Below the pieces are notes generated by a model. It saw nothing but the letters and a program-made list of their open reading frames with translations. It was not told the DNA's origin and made no database searches. Positions 39,700 through 48,161 of a stretch of DNA of 56,703 nt are shown piece by piece (position 1 is the first letter of the stretch; each line of letters starts with the position of its first letter). The DNA is from Bacteroidaceae bacterium (GTDB taxonomy: Bacteria; Bacteroidota; Bacteroidia; Bacteroidales; Barnesiellaceae_A): positions 1 through 56,703 of the forward strand of contig JAGBHF010000080.1 in assembly GCA_017935645.1 (NCBI GenBank), written 5' to 3'. A program made the translations under genes and the position numbers.

Positions 39700-40287
39700 T
39701 TATAATTTTCGTTTTCGCAATATCTGCTGTATCATAGCCGCCTCCTCATAAGCCTCTACCGCAACAGCATGCTCAATGCGACCTTGCAGCTCGGCATCAC
39801 TCATCGACTCATAGTCGTTATGAGATGCTTGCGATGAAGATGCTCCGTCATCCTTACTTTCAAGTTGCGAAGCCTCAAAACCCGCCACTTCGAGCACCGA
39901 TGATGCCATGTATATAGGCGACTGAGTGCGCAAGGCTATAGCAATAGCATCGGACGTGCGCGAGTCAATCTCCTCGAGGTGTCCATCCCTATTGAGCACC
40001 AATGTCGAGTAAAAAATCCCCTTGTCAAAGCGATATATATTTACCTCTTCGACATGCACACCACATCGTTCGGTAATACTTACAATAAGGTCGTGTGTCA
40101 TGGGACGTGGAGGCTCAAGATTCTCCATGCGAATAGCTATCGACTGCGCCTCGGCAGTACCTACCACCACCGGTATGCGACGGCTACCATCTTCCTCAGC
40201 CAACAACAACACAAAAGCACCCTGTTGCAAGTGGCTATAAGTTATGCCCAATACTTTTACACGTACTCTGTCGGTATTCACGCTCAT
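39700..40287 (-). CDS. Bifunctional nuclease (DUF151) with C-terminal UVR motif
   Basis: The 195-residue protein has a DUF151 domain (about 5-135) with LGITYSHLQQGAFVLLLAE, GTAEAQSIAI and SRTSDAIAIALR; family members cleave DNA and RNA in vitro. An acidic/Ser linker (DDGASSSQASHND) joins it to a UvrB/UvrC-type motif at about 160-195 (EAYEEAAMIQQILRKRK), which usually mediates protein contacts. The fusion is common in Bacteroidota. It is the first gene of a four-gene minus-strand run with a good promoter 62-98 bases upstream. Confidence 0.88.
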   Translation of the reverse strand: MSVNTDRVRVKVLGITYSHLQQGAFVLLLAEEDGSRRIPVVVGTAEAQSIAIRMENLEPPRPMTHDLIVSITERCGVHVEEVNIYRFDKGIFYSTLVLNRDGHLEEIDSRTSDAIAIALRTQSPIYMASSVLEVAGFEASQLESKDDGASSSQASHNDYESMSDAELQGRIEHAVAVEAYEEAAMIQQILRKRKL

Positions 40288-40440: not shown

Positions 40441-40471
40441 AAAAAAAAGAGGACGCACCGTCGGTGCGTCC
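40441..40471 (-). terminator. Terminator of the 40491-46338 operon
   Basis: Read on the minus strand, the 9-base stem GGACGCACC with GGTGCGTCC (40451-40459 and 40463-40471) is followed by CTC and a long T-run. Confidence 0.88.
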
Positions 40472-40490: not shown

Positions 40491-42212
40491 TTAAAACGTT
40501 AGTCCCAAATTGATATTAACTCCTGACAACCATTTATTTTCGTACATATTGTCGGGATAGTAATATACTGCTTTCTGCCAACGACCTTGGTAAGAAGCCG
40601 ATATATCAAAGCCCACCTTACTACTGAGGCGGATATTTATACCCAGTCCCGGAGCGACAAAGAAAGAACTGCCATTGTAGTTGGAATATTGGCTTTCTGG
40701 AATATTATTATGATAAATTATTACGCGCGAATCGGGCTCAAAAACATATCCCGCCGATAAGCTGAAAAAGAACTGCACCGGCTTACCGCCTGTTAGATAG
40801 GCTCGCATGTGGGCAAACAGCGGAAACTGCCAAGGACTACCATCGACATAAGTCTGTCCTTCGGTCTGCATTGCCGGTCGAAAATAGATGCAATCATCAT
40901 GATCGCTAAAATCAAACGATCCACCTATACCGGCTCCCAAGAACAGAGTATTGTTGAAACGCCATCCTGCGATATAATTGATTCCCAACATAGCCATCCC
41001 GAAGTATTCACTTACACCTTTTATCTGAACAGGCACACCGGTATAACCCACCTGCACAATCGACTCGAATTGCGATTGCATGGGTGTAGATAGAAGTTTT
41101 ATCCTTTCTGCTTTCCGCTGTGCTTCCTCTATTCTTCGCTGTGCTTCAGCTTGCATTTCTTCTGCTTTTCGTTTTGCTTCGGCCAGCTCTTGTTCCTCTT
41201 TCTTTTTTCTTTCCTCAAACTCGATACGCTGTTTTTCAATCTCTTCCTGCTCCAATTCTGCTCGGAATTTCTCAAATTCTTCATTGGGATACTGCGTATT
41301 GACTCCAAAGTTTTCACTCTCTTTCAATGGTGTCAAATCAACTCTTATTTCCACCAAACTGTCTTTAGCAATGGCTATATGACGACTGACTGTTTCGTAA
41401 CCTCTCAAACTCAATGTTACATCATATTCACCCACCGGGATAGAACGTGCAGGCATAGGAGAGTTGCCAAAGGATACATCATTTACTTTAATTTCGGCAC
41501 GAGGAGGATATGTAACAATTCGGAGTCGACCATGAACTTGTGATGAATCAACCATTGTCGGATTGACCAGAGGTTTCATCACCTTCATTACGTCTACGTG
41601 CTCACGGTCAATAACAACTCGACCACTCTCCGAAAGATAACCCGGCAGGCTCAATGTATAAGTATATTCACCATAGTGCAACTCCTCTTGCACCATAGTC
41701 TTTCCACTAAACACCTCTGCGCCATGATAGAAAAGGGTTAGTTGCGCCCCCTCGGGTTGGGTTTCGAAAAGCAAAAATCCATATTGGTCCATCAATTCCA
41801 ATTCGTCTACTTGTGGCGTATTCAATACAAGACGATATACCGTAGCTGCCTTGACAGACTCAAAGTGATAGAACCCATCATTCGTTTCGGTTTCTAACTG
41901 TCCAAAATGCGGATGGGTAATCTTCAATTTAATAGTTCCTTCAGGAACGTACACCCAATGCTCCGATAATTCAGGCTTATGAATAGCCTCTACAACACCC
42001 AATTGACCGTTTTCAAATTTAAAGCCACGCTGGGATGTAACAACTTTTATTATCGCACATCTATTTCCATTCCAATCATTTATAGAGTGATTAATGCGAG
42101 CATCTTGGTCATTAGGTTCCATCTTAAAACTCTCGACGCTGAAGCCGGACTGTGAAAAGACCGCTATTACGCCCAATAGCAAGCACAATAATAGAGAATA
42201 TAATCGTTGCAT
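40491..42212 (-). CDS. PEGA-domain, coiled-coil and barrel envelope protein
   Basis: The 573-residue protein has a signal peptide (SLLLCLLLGVIAVFSQ, about 5-20). The N-terminal half holds beta-sandwich repeats, the clearest being a PEGA domain at about 225-295 (RLRIVTYPPRAEIKVNDVSFG; VGEYDVTLSLRGYE). A charged coiled coil of Glu/Lys/Arg runs from about 310 to 380. The final 190 residues are amphipathic strands ending in Phe (GVNINLGLTF), a predicted outer-membrane barrel. PEGA domains often bind peptidoglycan or cell-surface polymers. It is the last of four exported proteins, 58 bases after the 42271 gene. Confidence 0.78.
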   Translation of the reverse strand: MQRLYSLLLCLLLGVIAVFSQSGFSVESFKMEPNDQDARINHSINDWNGNRCAIIKVVTSQRGFKFENGQLGVVEAIHKPELSEHWVYVPEGTIKLKITHPHFGQLETETNDGFYHFESVKAATVYRLVLNTPQVDELELMDQYGFLLFETQPEGAQLTLFYHGAEVFSGKTMVQEELHYGEYTYTLSLPGYLSESGRVVIDREHVDVMKVMKPLVNPTMVDSSQVHGRLRIVTYPPRAEIKVNDVSFGNSPMPARSIPVGEYDVTLSLRGYETVSRHIAIAKDSLVEIRVDLTPLKESENFGVNTQYPNEEFEKFRAELEQEEIEKQRIEFEERKKKEEQELAEAKRKAEEMQAEAQRRIEEAQRKAERIKLLSTPMQSQFESIVQVGYTGVPVQIKGVSEYFGMAMLGINYIAGWRFNNTLFLGAGIGGSFDFSDHDDCIYFRPAMQTEGQTYVDGSPWQFPLFAHMRAYLTGGKPVQFFFSLSAGYVFEPDSRVIIYHNNIPESQYSNYNGSSFFVAPGLGINIRLSSKVGFDISASYQGRWQKAVYYYPDNMYENKWLSGVNINLGLTF

Positions 42213-42270
42213 AATATTCTTACGAGTGGTTTTTATCTATTATAAAATCCTCTTTTTCAATCACTATTTA

Positions 42271-44115
42271 CTAAAAATGTTCAGGACCTATCAAGCCCCA
42301 TTCAGGGTCGGGTTCTTCTTGCCATGCCCTAATGTGTATAATGGGTTGTTGAGGATTGTTCACATCAACCATCAAGAAAAGGTATCCTGAATCGCCATAG
42401 TTGTCTGAGAAATAATCTTGTTTAATCTGAATGGCATACACTTCACCACCTTTGCCCATCTTCCTCACCTCATTGTTGGCGAACTTGATATTGACAAATT
42501 CATTGTATCGGAACACATTTTTCAGTCGCGCAATATACTCTTCCTTCGATACCTTTGTAGTGGTTACGTAGCGATTGTTCTGGTATCCCAATTCAGGAGA
42601 GCCTTCCAACTTTTCAACAACATTACCAACGATAATAAGTGCATCATCGGCAAAAATCGATTCCAAATAATCGGCACGCTTCAGGGCATAGGCCGTCTTA
42701 TAATTTTCAAGGAATGATGCAAGCACCTCCTTGGCCTGTTGACTCCAAGGCTTCGAATAGAAAATATCCTCCTTGGCCACTTCGCTCAATCCAAATGAGA
42801 TATTATCTATTTTGTCGGACTTATCGAAGACAAAAACGACATTCTCTACAAATTTGCGACCGGCCGAGAAAGAGAACTGCATGGGCACACTGCGACAAGT
42901 TACAAAGCCATTCAACTCGGCAAATGACAAATCGATACTGCTGTCTACAACCTTAGCCTTACCATAAGCTATAAGCTTATTGAAAAGCTCATAACCATCG
43001 GGGGTAAAGTAGGTTTCAACCGAGGCATAATTCTTCTTGCGTATAGCATCTACAACATTGTAAATGGTGATTTTATAGGATTCGACAGCCTCATTGCTCA
43101 ACGAAGTAACACTATCGGGAAGAGCAAGCGACTGGGCCGATGAGGCTACAGCATGGGGTTGGACTGTCAGGCTTATCTTAGCCGGCAGTATATTTTTGAC
43201 AAGAGGAACATCTACTTTCGCTTGGCGATAATTTATTTCGTCTACCGCATCAAGTACATCCGACACATCTCTACGTATGGTTGATTCGTTCCTATATTGA
43301 TACTCATACTCTATTTTTACTTGTTCAGGCTCATAGTCAGGTTGTAGCTCTATCAAAGCAATACCATCACGTACTGATATCAAATCACTCCAGTCAGCAC
43401 CATCATAATAGCGGAAATCAAGGCTTACCACCGGGCGCTCGTTATACGAAAATGAGACCTTGTAATTATTACTATCTTCTTGTTTACCAACAACTTTCGC
43501 CTGAATATTCGTAAATATTGTCTCCAGTTGTTGTGGCACAAAGATAGATGCTTTTTTAGAATCGGTGATATTAAAAGTGAACATCAAATCATCAGTCGGT
43601 CGCAGGCTGTTTAACATGATGTTGGCCCAATAGTAGTGACGAATTGCCCCACCGATATTGTTTTCATTCAAGGCTTCAACTGCTACTTTGGTAAATTCCT
43701 TGATAACCGACTTGCGCTCCTCAAATATCTTATCAACATCCGATTTCTTAATGTAATAGAGGTAATGGTAAGGGGTATCTGAAAGCAACAATTTCTCGGC
43801 ATTGGGTAAAGAACCGGATGTATAGGTCTTCACGACCTTTTCCACCTCAACAGAAGACGACACATTTTGACCATCTTGCTCATTGGCCACAGTTGTATTA
43901 ACCTCTCCGGTTACACGAACGCCAAATATCTGGATTAAAAGATCGTGCAATGCATTCTTTTCGGCTATCTCTCGAGATTGGCCATCGCCTTCTCCATATA
44001 TATAGGCTTCATCAGCCTTAATTACCTCTGCCTTTTCATAATTTCTTGTATAGTCTTGGGCATAACAATGCGCTATGATAGAGACTATCAATAGAGAACA
44101 AAAAAATCTTTTCAT
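42271..44115 (-). CDS. LPP20-like exported protein, large
   Basis: The 614-residue protein has a signal peptide (FFCSLLIVSIIAHCYAQ). The segment YIYGEGDGQSREIAEKNALHDLL (about 38-60), followed by VTGEV and SSVEVEKVVKTYTSGSL, resembles the LPP20 fold, in which many residues precede a helix with alternating Ala. The C-terminal part (about 440-614) contains a region like SnoaL/NTF2-type proteins (LENYKTAYALKRADYLESIFADDALIIVG) and ends YLFLMVDVNNPQQPIIHIRAWQ. Function is unknown. It starts 3 bases after the transglutaminase-like gene, and the same fold recurs in the first gene of the operon. Confidence 0.72.
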   Translation of the reverse strand: MKRFFCSLLIVSIIAHCYAQDYTRNYEKAEVIKADEAYIYGEGDGQSREIAEKNALHDLLIQIFGVRVTGEVNTTVANEQDGQNVSSSVEVEKVVKTYTSGSLPNAEKLLLSDTPYHYLYYIKKSDVDKIFEERKSVIKEFTKVAVEALNENNIGGAIRHYYWANIMLNSLRPTDDLMFTFNITDSKKASIFVPQQLETIFTNIQAKVVGKQEDSNNYKVSFSYNERPVVSLDFRYYDGADWSDLISVRDGIALIELQPDYEPEQVKIEYEYQYRNESTIRRDVSDVLDAVDEINYRQAKVDVPLVKNILPAKISLTVQPHAVASSAQSLALPDSVTSLSNEAVESYKITIYNVVDAIRKKNYASVETYFTPDGYELFNKLIAYGKAKVVDSSIDLSFAELNGFVTCRSVPMQFSFSAGRKFVENVVFVFDKSDKIDNISFGLSEVAKEDIFYSKPWSQQAKEVLASFLENYKTAYALKRADYLESIFADDALIIVGNVVEKLEGSPELGYQNNRYVTTTKVSKEEYIARLKNVFRYNEFVNIKFANNEVRKMGKGGEVYAIQIKQDYFSDNYGDSGYLFLMVDVNNPQQPIIHIRAWQEEPDPEWGLIGPEHF

Positions 44116-44118
44116 GAT

Positions 44119-45630
44119 TTAATCTAACTTTATAAGTCCTGCCGAAACGCCCTTATATTGAGGCATAGAAACTCCTATCGAAGCTCCTAAATAAGTAGGA
44201 TCGCACACTACATATTTTTTATCTTCATACAAGAACCAATCGCCATTAACCGCCTCAGGGAATGCGACAGCTGCAGCAAGATGGCCGGGATAACCAACCA
44301 AGAGAGCATCTAATCCCAACAAATCGCGTACCATGCGTGTAAATAGAATAGAACGATCCTCACAATCACAATAGGGATAATAGAGGGTTTCTTCCATGAA
44401 GAATATTCGTTCAGCACCCCATACTTTCTGGTCGACCTCATAGTCAAATCCGGTTTGCACCCAATTGAGCAAATACGATACAGCATCGTAGGGTGAAAGC
44501 CCTTCCAATCGTTCTTTCATCGGTGCGTACAAGGACTTCTCGACAGTTTCACTTACGGGCGTGTTGGCGTATATCGACCACTGCGTCATTTGATTGCCTG
44601 AATAGGTCGATATTGGGTAGGTATTATAAAAATCGATAAGATTCTTATTTTCATTGGCAACAAACGACATGTTAATATAACGACTCGACTCAATCTTTCG
44701 CTCTTCGGTATCATACTCTGCTAACACGGGCGATGAGTTGATAATCAACGACAACGGTTGTTCTCCGTCAAAAGGCACGTCACAGAACGCAAAGCGGGTC
44801 TGGTCGGTATTGTCATACAAATAGAATCCGCCCGGAAATCTTTTTACACCTGCACCATATATCGTATGATGGGTTGAATAAGACATCACAAGTCGGTTTT
44901 CGCCATCGGCTATTGCCAAGCGCATCTTATAACCCGATTGGCAATAAAGAAACGCTCTCAAAAAGACCGACTCGTTGGTATCTTCGCCCAAGAACTCGTC
45001 ACACAATACATCCAACATTTGCAGGTAGGCATAATCACAGAGCTTCATTTTCATTCTCAACTCAAGGCAATCGCGAATAAGATTGTCATACAACTCTCCG
45101 GAGCAATTTTTCCACTGCTCCGAAATAGCGAAACCATCAAGTGTAGAGAATTCAAAGCGATGACGTTCGTCAATGCGAACCTGGCAATTTGTTCCATAGA
45201 ACTCAAAATCGAACCACTCAATATTCAAGTTGGGTACTTCGAAAATAGGCACAACCGGTTGGGGTTGTTGAATAGGCTCAGGAAGAGTTATTACCAAGTT
45301 ATAAGGAAGAGGTTCTGTCACCTCGGTGTAAGCATTGGTATTCTCCGGAGCAACAGGCTGAACCGGGAAAACAGGTTCTTCTTGTGGTATGGGTACTGCC
45401 GGCTCACTCTCACGCGTACCCCATGTCTCTTTCAAAAACTCGGCATACTTAGCATTTGCTTCGTCTCGAAACTTGCGATATGCAAGTCGGTCAGCCTCTC
45501 TTTGCGACATAAAGACCGATTCAATCTCTTTTTTAAAGTCATTGAAACCATCCTTTTTTGTATCTTGTGCATTGACACCTATCGATATAAAGAGGAAAAG
45601 AAATAGAATAATACGTCCGGTAATACCCAT
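44119..45630 (-). CDS. Exported transglutaminase-like protein
   Basis: The 503-residue protein has a signal peptide (RIILFLFLFISIGVNAQ, about 6-22), a charged helical stretch (about 30-75), a Pro/Glu/Val-rich linker (about 78-130) and a C-terminal transglutaminase-like domain. The catalytic triad can be placed as Cys423 (YCDCEDRSILF), His450 (GYPGHLAAAV) and Asp477 (VVCDPTYLGA). All three are present, so the fold is probably active as a cysteine protease or crosslinking enzyme in the periplasm. The substrate is unknown; the neighbouring PEGA/coiled-coil and LPP20-like proteins are candidates. Confidence 0.8.
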   Translation of the reverse strand: MGITGRIILFLFLFISIGVNAQDTKKDGFNDFKKEIESVFMSQREADRLAYRKFRDEANAKYAEFLKETWGTRESEPAVPIPQEEPVFPVQPVAPENTNAYTEVTEPLPYNLVITLPEPIQQPQPVVPIFEVPNLNIEWFDFEFYGTNCQVRIDERHRFEFSTLDGFAISEQWKNCSGELYDNLIRDCLELRMKMKLCDYAYLQMLDVLCDEFLGEDTNESVFLRAFLYCQSGYKMRLAIADGENRLVMSYSTHHTIYGAGVKRFPGGFYLYDNTDQTRFAFCDVPFDGEQPLSLIINSSPVLAEYDTEERKIESSRYINMSFVANENKNLIDFYNTYPISTYSGNQMTQWSIYANTPVSETVEKSLYAPMKERLEGLSPYDAVSYLLNWVQTGFDYEVDQKVWGAERIFFMEETLYYPYCDCEDRSILFTRMVRDLLGLDALLVGYPGHLAAAVAFPEAVNGDWFLYEDKKYVVCDPTYLGASIGVSMPQYKGVSAGLIKLD

Positions 45631-45663
45631 ACCCTATGTAATATTTAAGTTATACAATATCAA

Positions 45664-46338
45664 TTACCAACCCAACTTGCTATCAAGTTCGTTGTGTAAA
45701 TCGGTGCCATTTTTCTCCAACTCTTGGCGAATAGCTTTTTTAGCTGATTCCATAGCCATTTTGTAGTTATAGGCAACGCGTACAAGCACTTCCTTATTTT
45801 TGTTATCAAGTTCGCGATAAGCCTCTACGACTGTAATAACACGGCCCAAACTTTGCGAAATCAAGCTCTTGCTTGCCGATACGGTCTTTACGATAGAAGC
45901 AGCTTCATTCTCGGGCAATTGTTCGTTGGCAATTGAAGTCTCCACCAACGCAGTAATCTCAATATGCAACTTCGAAGCGGCATCTTGACGAGCCAACTCC
46001 AATGCTTGCATCTTAGCGGCATCGTAAGATTCGCCAATACTCATAGCCTGACCGATTACATACAAAGGATAACCCGACTCATCCAACTCATATTGCATCA
46101 ACATTGAACGGTCAACTTGCTTCTCGAGTGACAAAGAACCGGGAGTTACTTTCCAACCCTCTTTTTTAAGGCGTTTAGCCTCATTACGAGCATCCTTCGA
46201 TACCTTCTTATCGAGTTCTTTACGTTGTTGTTTAACTTGCTCACTACGTTCTTTTTGTTGTGCTTTAGTCAGTTGTGCTTGAACAGGATTAACAGTGAAT
46301 AAACTTGCAATCAAAATAGAGAATAAGATCTTTTTCAT
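45664..46338 (-). CDS. LPP20-like exported protein, small
   Basis: The 224-residue protein has a signal (ILFSILIASLFTVNPVQAQ, about 4-22) followed by a Lys/Gln/Glu-rich helix (about 23-62). The LPP20-like part is YPLYVIGQAMSIGESYDAAK (about 90-109), then ALELARQDAASKLHIEITALVE and VLVRVAYNYKMAMESAKKAI. It starts the four-gene operon. Family members are outer-membrane-associated lipoproteins or periplasmic proteins of unknown role. No lipobox Cys is present, so it is probably soluble. Confidence 0.72.
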   Translation of the reverse strand: MKKILFSILIASLFTVNPVQAQLTKAQQKERSEQVKQQRKELDKKVSKDARNEAKRLKKEGWKVTPGSLSLEKQVDRSMLMQYELDESGYPLYVIGQAMSIGESYDAAKMQALELARQDAASKLHIEITALVETSIANEQLPENEAASIVKTVSASKSLISQSLGRVITVVEAYRELDNKNKEVLVRVAYNYKMAMESAKKAIRQELEKNGTDLHNELDSKLGW

Positions 46339-46384: not shown

Positions 46385-46392
46385 CAAAGATA
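46385..46392 (-). promoter_or_regulatory. -7 promoter element of the LPP20/transglutaminase operon
   Basis: TATCTTTG on the minus strand lies 47 bases upstream of the ATG at 46338. No good -33 box was found. Confidence 0.5.
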
Positions 46393-46517: not shown

Positions 46518-48161
46518 TTAGCACTTGCCGGGGCAGGTGGGCTTGATTTGTTTGAAGAAGTCGTTGCCCTTGTCGTCTACCAAGATGAATGCGGGGAAGT
46601 CCTCTACCTCGATTTTCCAGATGGCTTCCATACCCAACTCGGGATATTCCAAGCATTCTACTTTCTTGATACTGTTTTGTGCCAAGATAGCTGCAGGACC
46701 ACCTATACTACCCAAGTAGAAACCACCATGCTTGTGACATGCATCGGTAACTTGTTGACTGCGATTACCCTTGGCTATCATCACCATCGATCCACCATTC
46801 GATTGGAAGAGGTCGACATACGAGTCCATACGACCGGCTGTTGTGGGACCAAACGAACCTGAAGCCATGCCTATGGGTGTCTTGGCAGGACCTGCATAGT
46901 AAATGGGGTGATTCTTGAGATATTCGGGCATAGGCTCACCGGCATCAAGACGCTCTTTAATCTTGGCGTGTGCGATGTCACGACCTACAATAATAGTACC
47001 ATTCAACGAGAGGCGTGTCGCAACGGGGTACTTGGTGAGTTCGGCAAGAATCTCGCTCATGGGACGGTTGAGATCGATGCGTACGGCATCACCCTCGCCT
47101 GCTTGACGCAACTCCTCAGGTATGAGGGTTGAGGGTTGGTCGTCGAGTTTTTCAATCCACAAGCCATCTTTGTTAATCTTGGCCTTAATATTGCGGTCGG
47201 CTGAGCATGATACACCCATACCTACGGGGCACGAAGCTCCGTGACGAGGCAAGCGGATAATGCGAATATCGTGTGCGAAATATTTACCACCAAATTGTGC
47301 ACCATAACCCGATGCTTGAGCGGCTGCCAACACCTCTTTCTCCAACTCTACATCGCGGAAGGCTTGACCCCACTCGTTACCCTCGGTGGGTAGACGGTCG
47401 TAATACTTGGCTGATGCCAATTTTACGGTCTTGAGGTTGGTCTCGGCACTTGTACCACCGATAACAAATGCTACGTGATAGGGATGACAAGCGGCTGTAC
47501 CCAATGTCTTCATCTTCTCAACGAGGAAGGGAACAAGAGTCTTGGGATTGATAAGAGCCTTAGTCTCTTGATATAGATAGGTCTTATTGGCCGAGCCACC
47601 ACCCTTGGCAATGAACAAGAAGTTATACTCCATGCCATCAACAGCAAAGAGGTCAATCTGAGCAGGAAGGTTACAACCGGTATTTACCTCGTCATACATA
47701 TTGAGAGGTGCATTTTGCGAGTAGCGGAGGTTCTCCTCGGTGTATGTCTTGTACACACCCAACGAGAGTGCTTCTTCGTCACCACCACCGGTCCACACTT
47801 GTTGACCTTTCTTACCCATAACGATTGCTGTACCGGTATCTTGACAGAAGGGCAATACACCCTTACAAGCCACCTCGGCATTGCGCAACATGGTGAGGGC
47901 TACAAACTTGTCGTTATCACTTGCTTCGGGGTCGTTGAGCACTTTGGCTACCATCTCGTTATGTTCGCGGCGCATCATAAACGACACATCGCGCATAGCA
48001 GCATTGGCCAATTTGGTGAGAGCCTCGGGCTCTACCTCAAGGATTTGACGACCATTACATTCCGATACTGATACATGTTCCTTTGTCAAGAGGTAATACT
48101 CCGTTTCATCGGGCTTGACATTGGGGAACATCGGTTGATACTTAAAAGGTTTTGTTGCCAT
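46518..48161 (-). CDS. Class I fumarate hydratase
   Basis: The 547-residue iron-sulfur fumarase interconverts malate and fumarate in the cytosol; in this anaerobe it probably feeds fumarate respiration and succinate/propionate formation. Cluster-region cysteines are seen at Cys106 (LPFCQDTGT), in the TAACHPYH segment and in [15 protein letters not shown]. The C-terminal domain has [23 protein letters not shown] and the family-typical [15 protein letters not shown]. The length matches the fused FumA/FumB form (alpha and beta parts in one chain). Oxygen sensitivity of the 4Fe-4S cluster fits anaerobic life. Confidence 0.95.

Follow-up and report, generated by a model that had tools for sequence, protein, structure and literature searches.

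A modular gene cassette of Bacteroidales encoding a LapG-like candidate envelope protease with LPP20-like and PEGA neighbours

Related systems

The closest described counterparts of the locus considered here are the LapG or BTLCP proteins (Peptidase C93; DvhG, HvyA), which are secreted to the periplasm and combine a transglutaminase fold with a Cys-His-Asp triad and an Asp-Cys-Glu motif. This D-C-E motif is present in both LapG and DvhG, and in both a calcium site beside the catalytic cysteine is required for proteolysis; in DvhG the calcium ligands are the acidic residues on either side of that cysteine, and mutation of D316/E318 or C317 abolishes calcium-dependent cleavage (for DvhG, PMC13090378). 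The enzyme described here, called B, is encoded in a four-gene cassette (A to D) of a Bacteroidaceae bacterium (GCA_017935645.1, contig JAGBHF010000080.1, positions 1-56,703 of the forward strand; this whole stretch of 56,703 nucleotides is hereafter the window). It shares with the LapG group a predicted periplasmic secretion, the fold, the triad and the Asp-Cys-Glu motif, but differs in lacking a Pfam match to that group, in carrying about 340 additional N-terminal residues (a long helix and a helical lobe) and in its genomic partners, which are LPP20, NTF2-like and PEGA proteins, whereas those of LapG are LapD and a large adhesin. Crosslinking transglutaminases such as TG2 and factor XIII have the same fold and type of triad, but are structurally farther from B than LapG is. 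To our knowledge, the D-C-E-D motif is absent from eukaryotic transglutaminases.

Two further groups resemble parts of the cassette. The LPP20/FlgP outer-membrane proteins have an LPP20-like domain in common with C and, more weakly, with A, but the window proteins A and C lack a lipobox, C carries an NTF2-like fusion, and there is no flagellar context. Caspase-containing conflict systems (VMAP, iSTAND ternary) have caspase and transglutaminase-like peptidases as well as PEGA among their parts (PMC7159879), but they are built on NTPases, whereas the parts of the cassette are all exported and an NTPase is absent. A known defence system was also considered, and the failure of PADLOC to match any of the four window proteins argues against it.

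A literature search found no published description of a B-type gene set in Bacteroidales, in agreement with the preliminary description, whose author knew of no pathway with these four genes. The cassette is real and conserved, and it is apparently undescribed. Relatives of B are encoded at at least 568 loci in a species-genome collection, and the carriers include cultured Bacteroidales (Parabacteroides acidifaciens, Paraprevotella xylaniphila, Xylanibacter rodentium), which points to an envelope system that is common among gut bacteria and for which no published role was found.

Gene organization and expression signals

All four genes lie on the minus strand, at the places first given for them: gene A (45664..46338) encodes 224 aa with an LPP20-like domain at about residues 90-170; gene B (44119..45630) encodes 503 aa, a LapG-like enzyme of transglutaminase fold with Cys423, His450 and Asp477, in which Asp422 and Glu424 are candidate calcium ligands; gene C (42271..44115) encodes 614 aa with an N-terminal LPP20-like part, a middle beta region and a C-terminal tandem NTF2-like part; and gene D (40491..42212) encodes 573 aa with a conserved head at about residues 25-130 and PEGA repeats (best match 228-295). 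The C-terminal half of D, as read from its sequence and its relatives, is predicted to consist of a coiled coil (about 305-380) and a likely outer-membrane barrel (about 385-573). The gaps between A and B, B and C, and C and D are 33, 3 and 58 bases, and the cassette fills the space between a fumarase gene (46518-48161) and a bifunctional-nuclease-domain gene (39700-40287). The signal peptides earlier assigned to all four products could be recognized as type I-like N-terminal segments that would end in A or S followed by Gln (VQA-Q, VNA-Q, CYA-Q and VFS-Q for A to D).

A Bacteroidota-type -7 box (TAnnTTTG; TATCTTTG) stands upstream of gene A at 46385..46392 of the minus strand, although a single copy is weak evidence because the motif occurs 37 times on the cassette's strand of the window. 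The nearest relative has TATTTTTG at the same place, so that the box is conserved there, and TAnnTTTG occurs within 150 bases upstream of 14 of 49 A-family genes, as compared to 6% of control stretches. Downstream of D, a strong intrinsic terminator (GGACGCACCGACGGTGCGTCC with a T-run; GGACGCACC-GAC-GGTGCGTCC-TCTTTTTTTT) is found at 40451..40471 of the same strand; both signals had been pointed out before. Our best explanation of the whole is that the four genes form one operon for a protease system of the envelope (periplasm or outer membrane), for which we see about as much reason for belief as for doubt.

Gene runs around B and the caspase module

The surroundings of B were compared in 79 B loci from named genomes. 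Its gene run includes A or A2, a lipoprotein relative of A (family g6), in 51 loci, C in 19 and D or its relative D2 in 22, and all four components stand in one run in 15. The order A-B-C-D of the window is one of several, next to A2-C-D2-B (nine loci, with C doubled in one; the version of Parabacteroides acidifaciens), D-C-A-B (two loci) and A-C-D-B. The four-gene set thus belongs, as one of several versions, to a larger family of modular build, and the cassette is not unique. In some B-carrying genomes C and D are adjacent to each other at a distance from B (G068:C18, G148:C151, G076:C113, G101:C9), and the C-D pair may therefore be a separate module.

The commonest other run has the order A - DUF4384 protein - caspase protein - B. 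Among the 79 runs C and DUF4384 never occur together: 19 have C alone, 30 DUF4384 alone and 30 neither (Fisher P 2.5e-5). Apparently, a DUF4384 protein, usually together with an exported caspase, substitutes for C. Peptidase_C14 was recognized in all ten caspase-position proteins examined, with front parts that vary between Sel1, WG, LRR_5 and CARDB repeats, and 55 of 70 proteins at this position retain both caspase catalytic motifs. Exported caspases with exchangeable Sel1, WG or LRR_5 fronts adjoin B-family genes throughout Bacteroidales, at L074:6179-9244, L112:7577-9280 and L132:7437-9965, among others.

These neighbours could also fit a different task for B, as the activating component of a signalling cascade in the periplasm: it would cleave an exported caspase or a membrane sensor depending on the state of the envelope, with the C-D version as the caspase-free form. 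The sharing of a run by B and caspase proteins in many loci is in line with this idea, as is the presence of CHASE2-domain (sensor) proteins next to B in 14 of the 79 runs. In four loci (L098:7874-9139, and also L100, L105 and L128) two small non-exported genes stand between C or the caspase and A-B; by eye they look like an ECF-type sigma/anti-sigma pair, but Pfam does not recognize them as such, and this assignment was abandoned. Since the window cassette itself comes without a caspase, a sensor or a regulator gene, we regard such a cascade as unlikely.

The transglutaminase-fold enzyme

Transglut_core is the sole recurrent Pfam match across B and its relatives, and in B itself it stays under the Pfam cut-off (E 0.0086). 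The positions Cys423, His450 and Asp477, named as the catalytic triad in the preliminary description, are exact. Among 37 aligned relatives they are kept in 34, 37 and 36, respectively, and among 71 closer homologues in 70, 71 and 71, so the suggested check of triad conservation, like that of co-occurrence (below), speaks for a real functional unit. Around the cysteine, D422 is conserved in 70 of the 71 homologues, C423 in 70, E424 in 69 and D425 in all, and D400, E414, R426, H450, G463 and D477 are invariant. Besides B of the window, which has a signal peptide, a simple rule detects one in 116 of 127 B-family ORFs. In many of the more distant relatives B is 860-920 residues long (L040, L042-L047, L052-L057, L059, L060) and continues beyond the transglutaminase-like domain; in L053, the one examined, Pfam recognizes nothing in this added part.

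The AlphaFold model of B has a mean pLDDT of 91.4, and LapG entries take the best four places in its comparison by VIA-align (Z 10.8, 10.0, 9.9 and 9.6), those of L. pneumophila coming after that of P. fluorescens, which aligns with residues 304-503 of B over 137 residues at 2.8 A rmsd (Z 10.8). The best matches outside LapG are PNGase and a Parabacteroides distasonis protein, a putative protease (Z 9.0), and tissue transglutaminases follow at Z 8.6 (TG2, TG3 and factor XIII, Z 8-8.6). The active-site segments read GAGDCEDYAIAKY...AHMVL in LapG (structure database) and PYCDCEDRSILF...GHLAAAV in B, and an alignment of LapG relatives from plasmid records has an invariant D, DCED and H at places that match those of B. 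LapG sequences were retrieved with a consensus as query, and only the returned database sequences, with the plasmid genes to which the query led, were used as evidence. The profile of B matches the LapG relatives with a probability of 88.7 and a score of 46.9, as compared to 72.8 and 39.3 when 20 mixed Transglut_core proteins of Bacteroidales are taken together, and a score of 30.2 for the commonest Transglut_core subfamily; against single LapG relatives the score is 27-44 in five of six cases, against single, diverse Transglut_core proteins 13-23. The margin of LapG over other families of this fold is clear but modest. Searches of solved structures by sequence, with B or its profile, found no relative, so that it is the fold, the motif and the comparison of profiles that link B to LapG. 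A [D/E]C-x-D motif also occurs in other bacterial transglutaminase-like proteins, so that D-C-E alone is not specific for LapG.

Peptidase_C93 (PF06035) gives no Pfam match in B or its relatives, nor in any of 61 Bacteroidota genomes, and a LapD-type receptor or large adhesin is found neither in the window nor among the recurrent neighbour families of B. Because the family model fails and these partners are missing, B is not classed in Peptidase C93. Nevertheless, B is best read, from its model and sequence, as a LapG-like cysteine protease: fold and profile are closest to LapG, and the acidic residues that correspond to the calcium ligands of DvhG are nearly invariant in the B family, which suggests that B works like LapG and, by analogy, is probably calcium dependent.

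It could be argued that B has genuine transglutaminase (or deamidase) activity and ties proteins of the envelope together by crosslinks, so that, for instance, D or the LPP20 proteins become fixed in a stable assembly. The fold with its intact C-H-D triad, the similarity to TG2, TG3 and factor XIII and the Transglut_core match would all suit this, but LapG scores higher both in fold and in profile, and the Asp and Glu flanking the cysteine form the LapG calcium motif; we consider crosslinking quite unlikely. Of the earlier guess of a crosslinking or maturation system, the first half is thus disfavoured, LapG being closer and Asp-Cys-Glu being kept, whereas maturation by proteolysis is plausible and, of the two, the favoured guess.

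The exported proteins A, C and D

The LPP20-like and PEGA domains listed in the preliminary description find support in Pfam and profile comparison, weakest for A. LPP20 is weak in A (E 0.029, 15.2 bits) and just under the curated cut-off of 25.9 bits in C (E 3.1e-5, 24.8 bits), but the family (PF02169) matches 15 of 23 C relatives with E values down to 2.5e-8, and comparison of the profiles of A and C (probability 87.6) indicates a common LPP20-like region. The lipobox cysteine is absent from A and C of the window, the signal peptides of which are type I-like; A2 has a lipobox-like segment. In the model of C (pLDDT 79.2) an LPP20-like domain stands at the N-terminus and an NTF2-like one at the C-terminus (Z up to 14.7 for the latter), and a second NTF2-like domain in front of the latter is suggested by tandem NTF2-like matches and secondary structure.

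PEGA (PF08308) is clearly recognized in D (E 6.8e-14, 52 bits against a cut-off of 20.8) and is found in all 14 D relatives. Pfam makes no call for the barrel in the window protein, but the tails of D relatives are OMP_b-brl or OMP_b-brl_2 (E down to 8.8e-17), by which the barrel proposed earlier for D becomes probable. Common to the D-type proteins are PEGA repeats and a head some 100 residues long; the tail is exchangeable between an outer-membrane barrel and an FGE-sulfatase-like domain, the latter seen in D-like proteins at L033:15791-17572, L071:11418-13304 and L086:6895-8727.

LPP20-like domains in both A and C, and BACON-like and fimbrillin-like surface proteins next to D-type proteins in some loci, could also fit an assembly for envelope structure or adhesion, in which LPP20 proteins form a ring or disk of the outer membrane like FlgP, D is anchored at the surface and B trims the parts. 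This is improbable, as A and C of the window have no lipobox, the LPP20 similarity of A is weak and flagellar or curli genes are absent nearby.

Proposed mechanism

Gene content, conservation, fold, motif, secretion, co-occurrence, module exchange and presence or absence at one site were established by computation, whereas protease activity, calcium dependence, the parts played by A, C and D, the substrate, the trigger and any phenotype are inferred. In the preferred reading, B would be a secreted, probably calcium-dependent cysteine protease working like LapG; A and C would be exported LPP20-like scaffolds or regulators that hold or gate it; and D, an outer-membrane-anchored PEGA protein, would be its likeliest local substrate or docking partner. 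Upon a trigger, B may cleave or release D or act on another envelope protein. For this gated protease with D as substrate or partner, the arguments on either side appear to us about evenly weighted. At other loci the DUF4384 protein and an exported caspase, the binding module of which varies, stand in place of C and D, which suggests a common logic of LPP20 proteins and a LapG-like protease with an exchangeable recognition or effector pair. More tentatively, and with doubt prevailing, the whole may be seen as a widespread and undescribed protease system of the Bacteroidales envelope. It would be modular, LPP20-like proteins and a LapG-like protease being joined by either an NTF2-like/PEGA-barrel or a DUF4384/exported-caspase module (the caspase with variable binding repeats), and would act as an extracytoplasmic two-protease pathway of sensing and execution. 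If the system works as proposed, Bacteroidota would have regulated periplasmic proteolysis of the LapG type with partners of another kind, and the genetic setting would allow the function of exported bacterial caspases to be tested.

Co-occurrence and divergence at the site

Co-occurrence was examined in 149 Bacteroidales genomes (hypergeometric P, with kinship removed in part). Full-length C is present in 14 genomes, all of which also have B (P = 1.4e-10), and these 14 carry 14 different family labels, so that it is not one clade counted repeatedly. A is found in 20 genomes, 14 of them with B (P 2e-6), the head of D in 15, 12 of them with B (P 1.4e-6), and C together with the D head in 12 (P 2.5e-13). 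The gene-neighbourhood search proposed earlier thus has the families co-occurring across Bacteroidales families beyond chance. That the four genes are unrelated neighbours, sharing a transcript by accident, might be read from their patchy presence (B in 35 of the 149 genomes of the order and in four of nine of the genus), but is hardly credible given this co-occurrence, the repeated clustering in distant families in varied gene orders and the presence or absence of the whole block at one site.

In five congeners (L149, L150, L152, L153, L155) the fumarase gene directly adjoins the nuclease gene and the cassette site is empty; among the congeners examined, the cassette was seen at this site in two genomes alone, that of the window and G150 (L148). 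Between these two, identity is 98.5% for fumarase, 73% for A, 77% for B, 51% for C and 54% for D (partial). Such fast divergence of C and D would agree with exposure at the surface or with conflict as the driving force, but the same pattern would result if the genes had been replaced by recombination. The bifunctional-nuclease-domain gene at 39700-40287 has 44-78% identity in congeners, as compared to 92-98% for the flanking fumarase.
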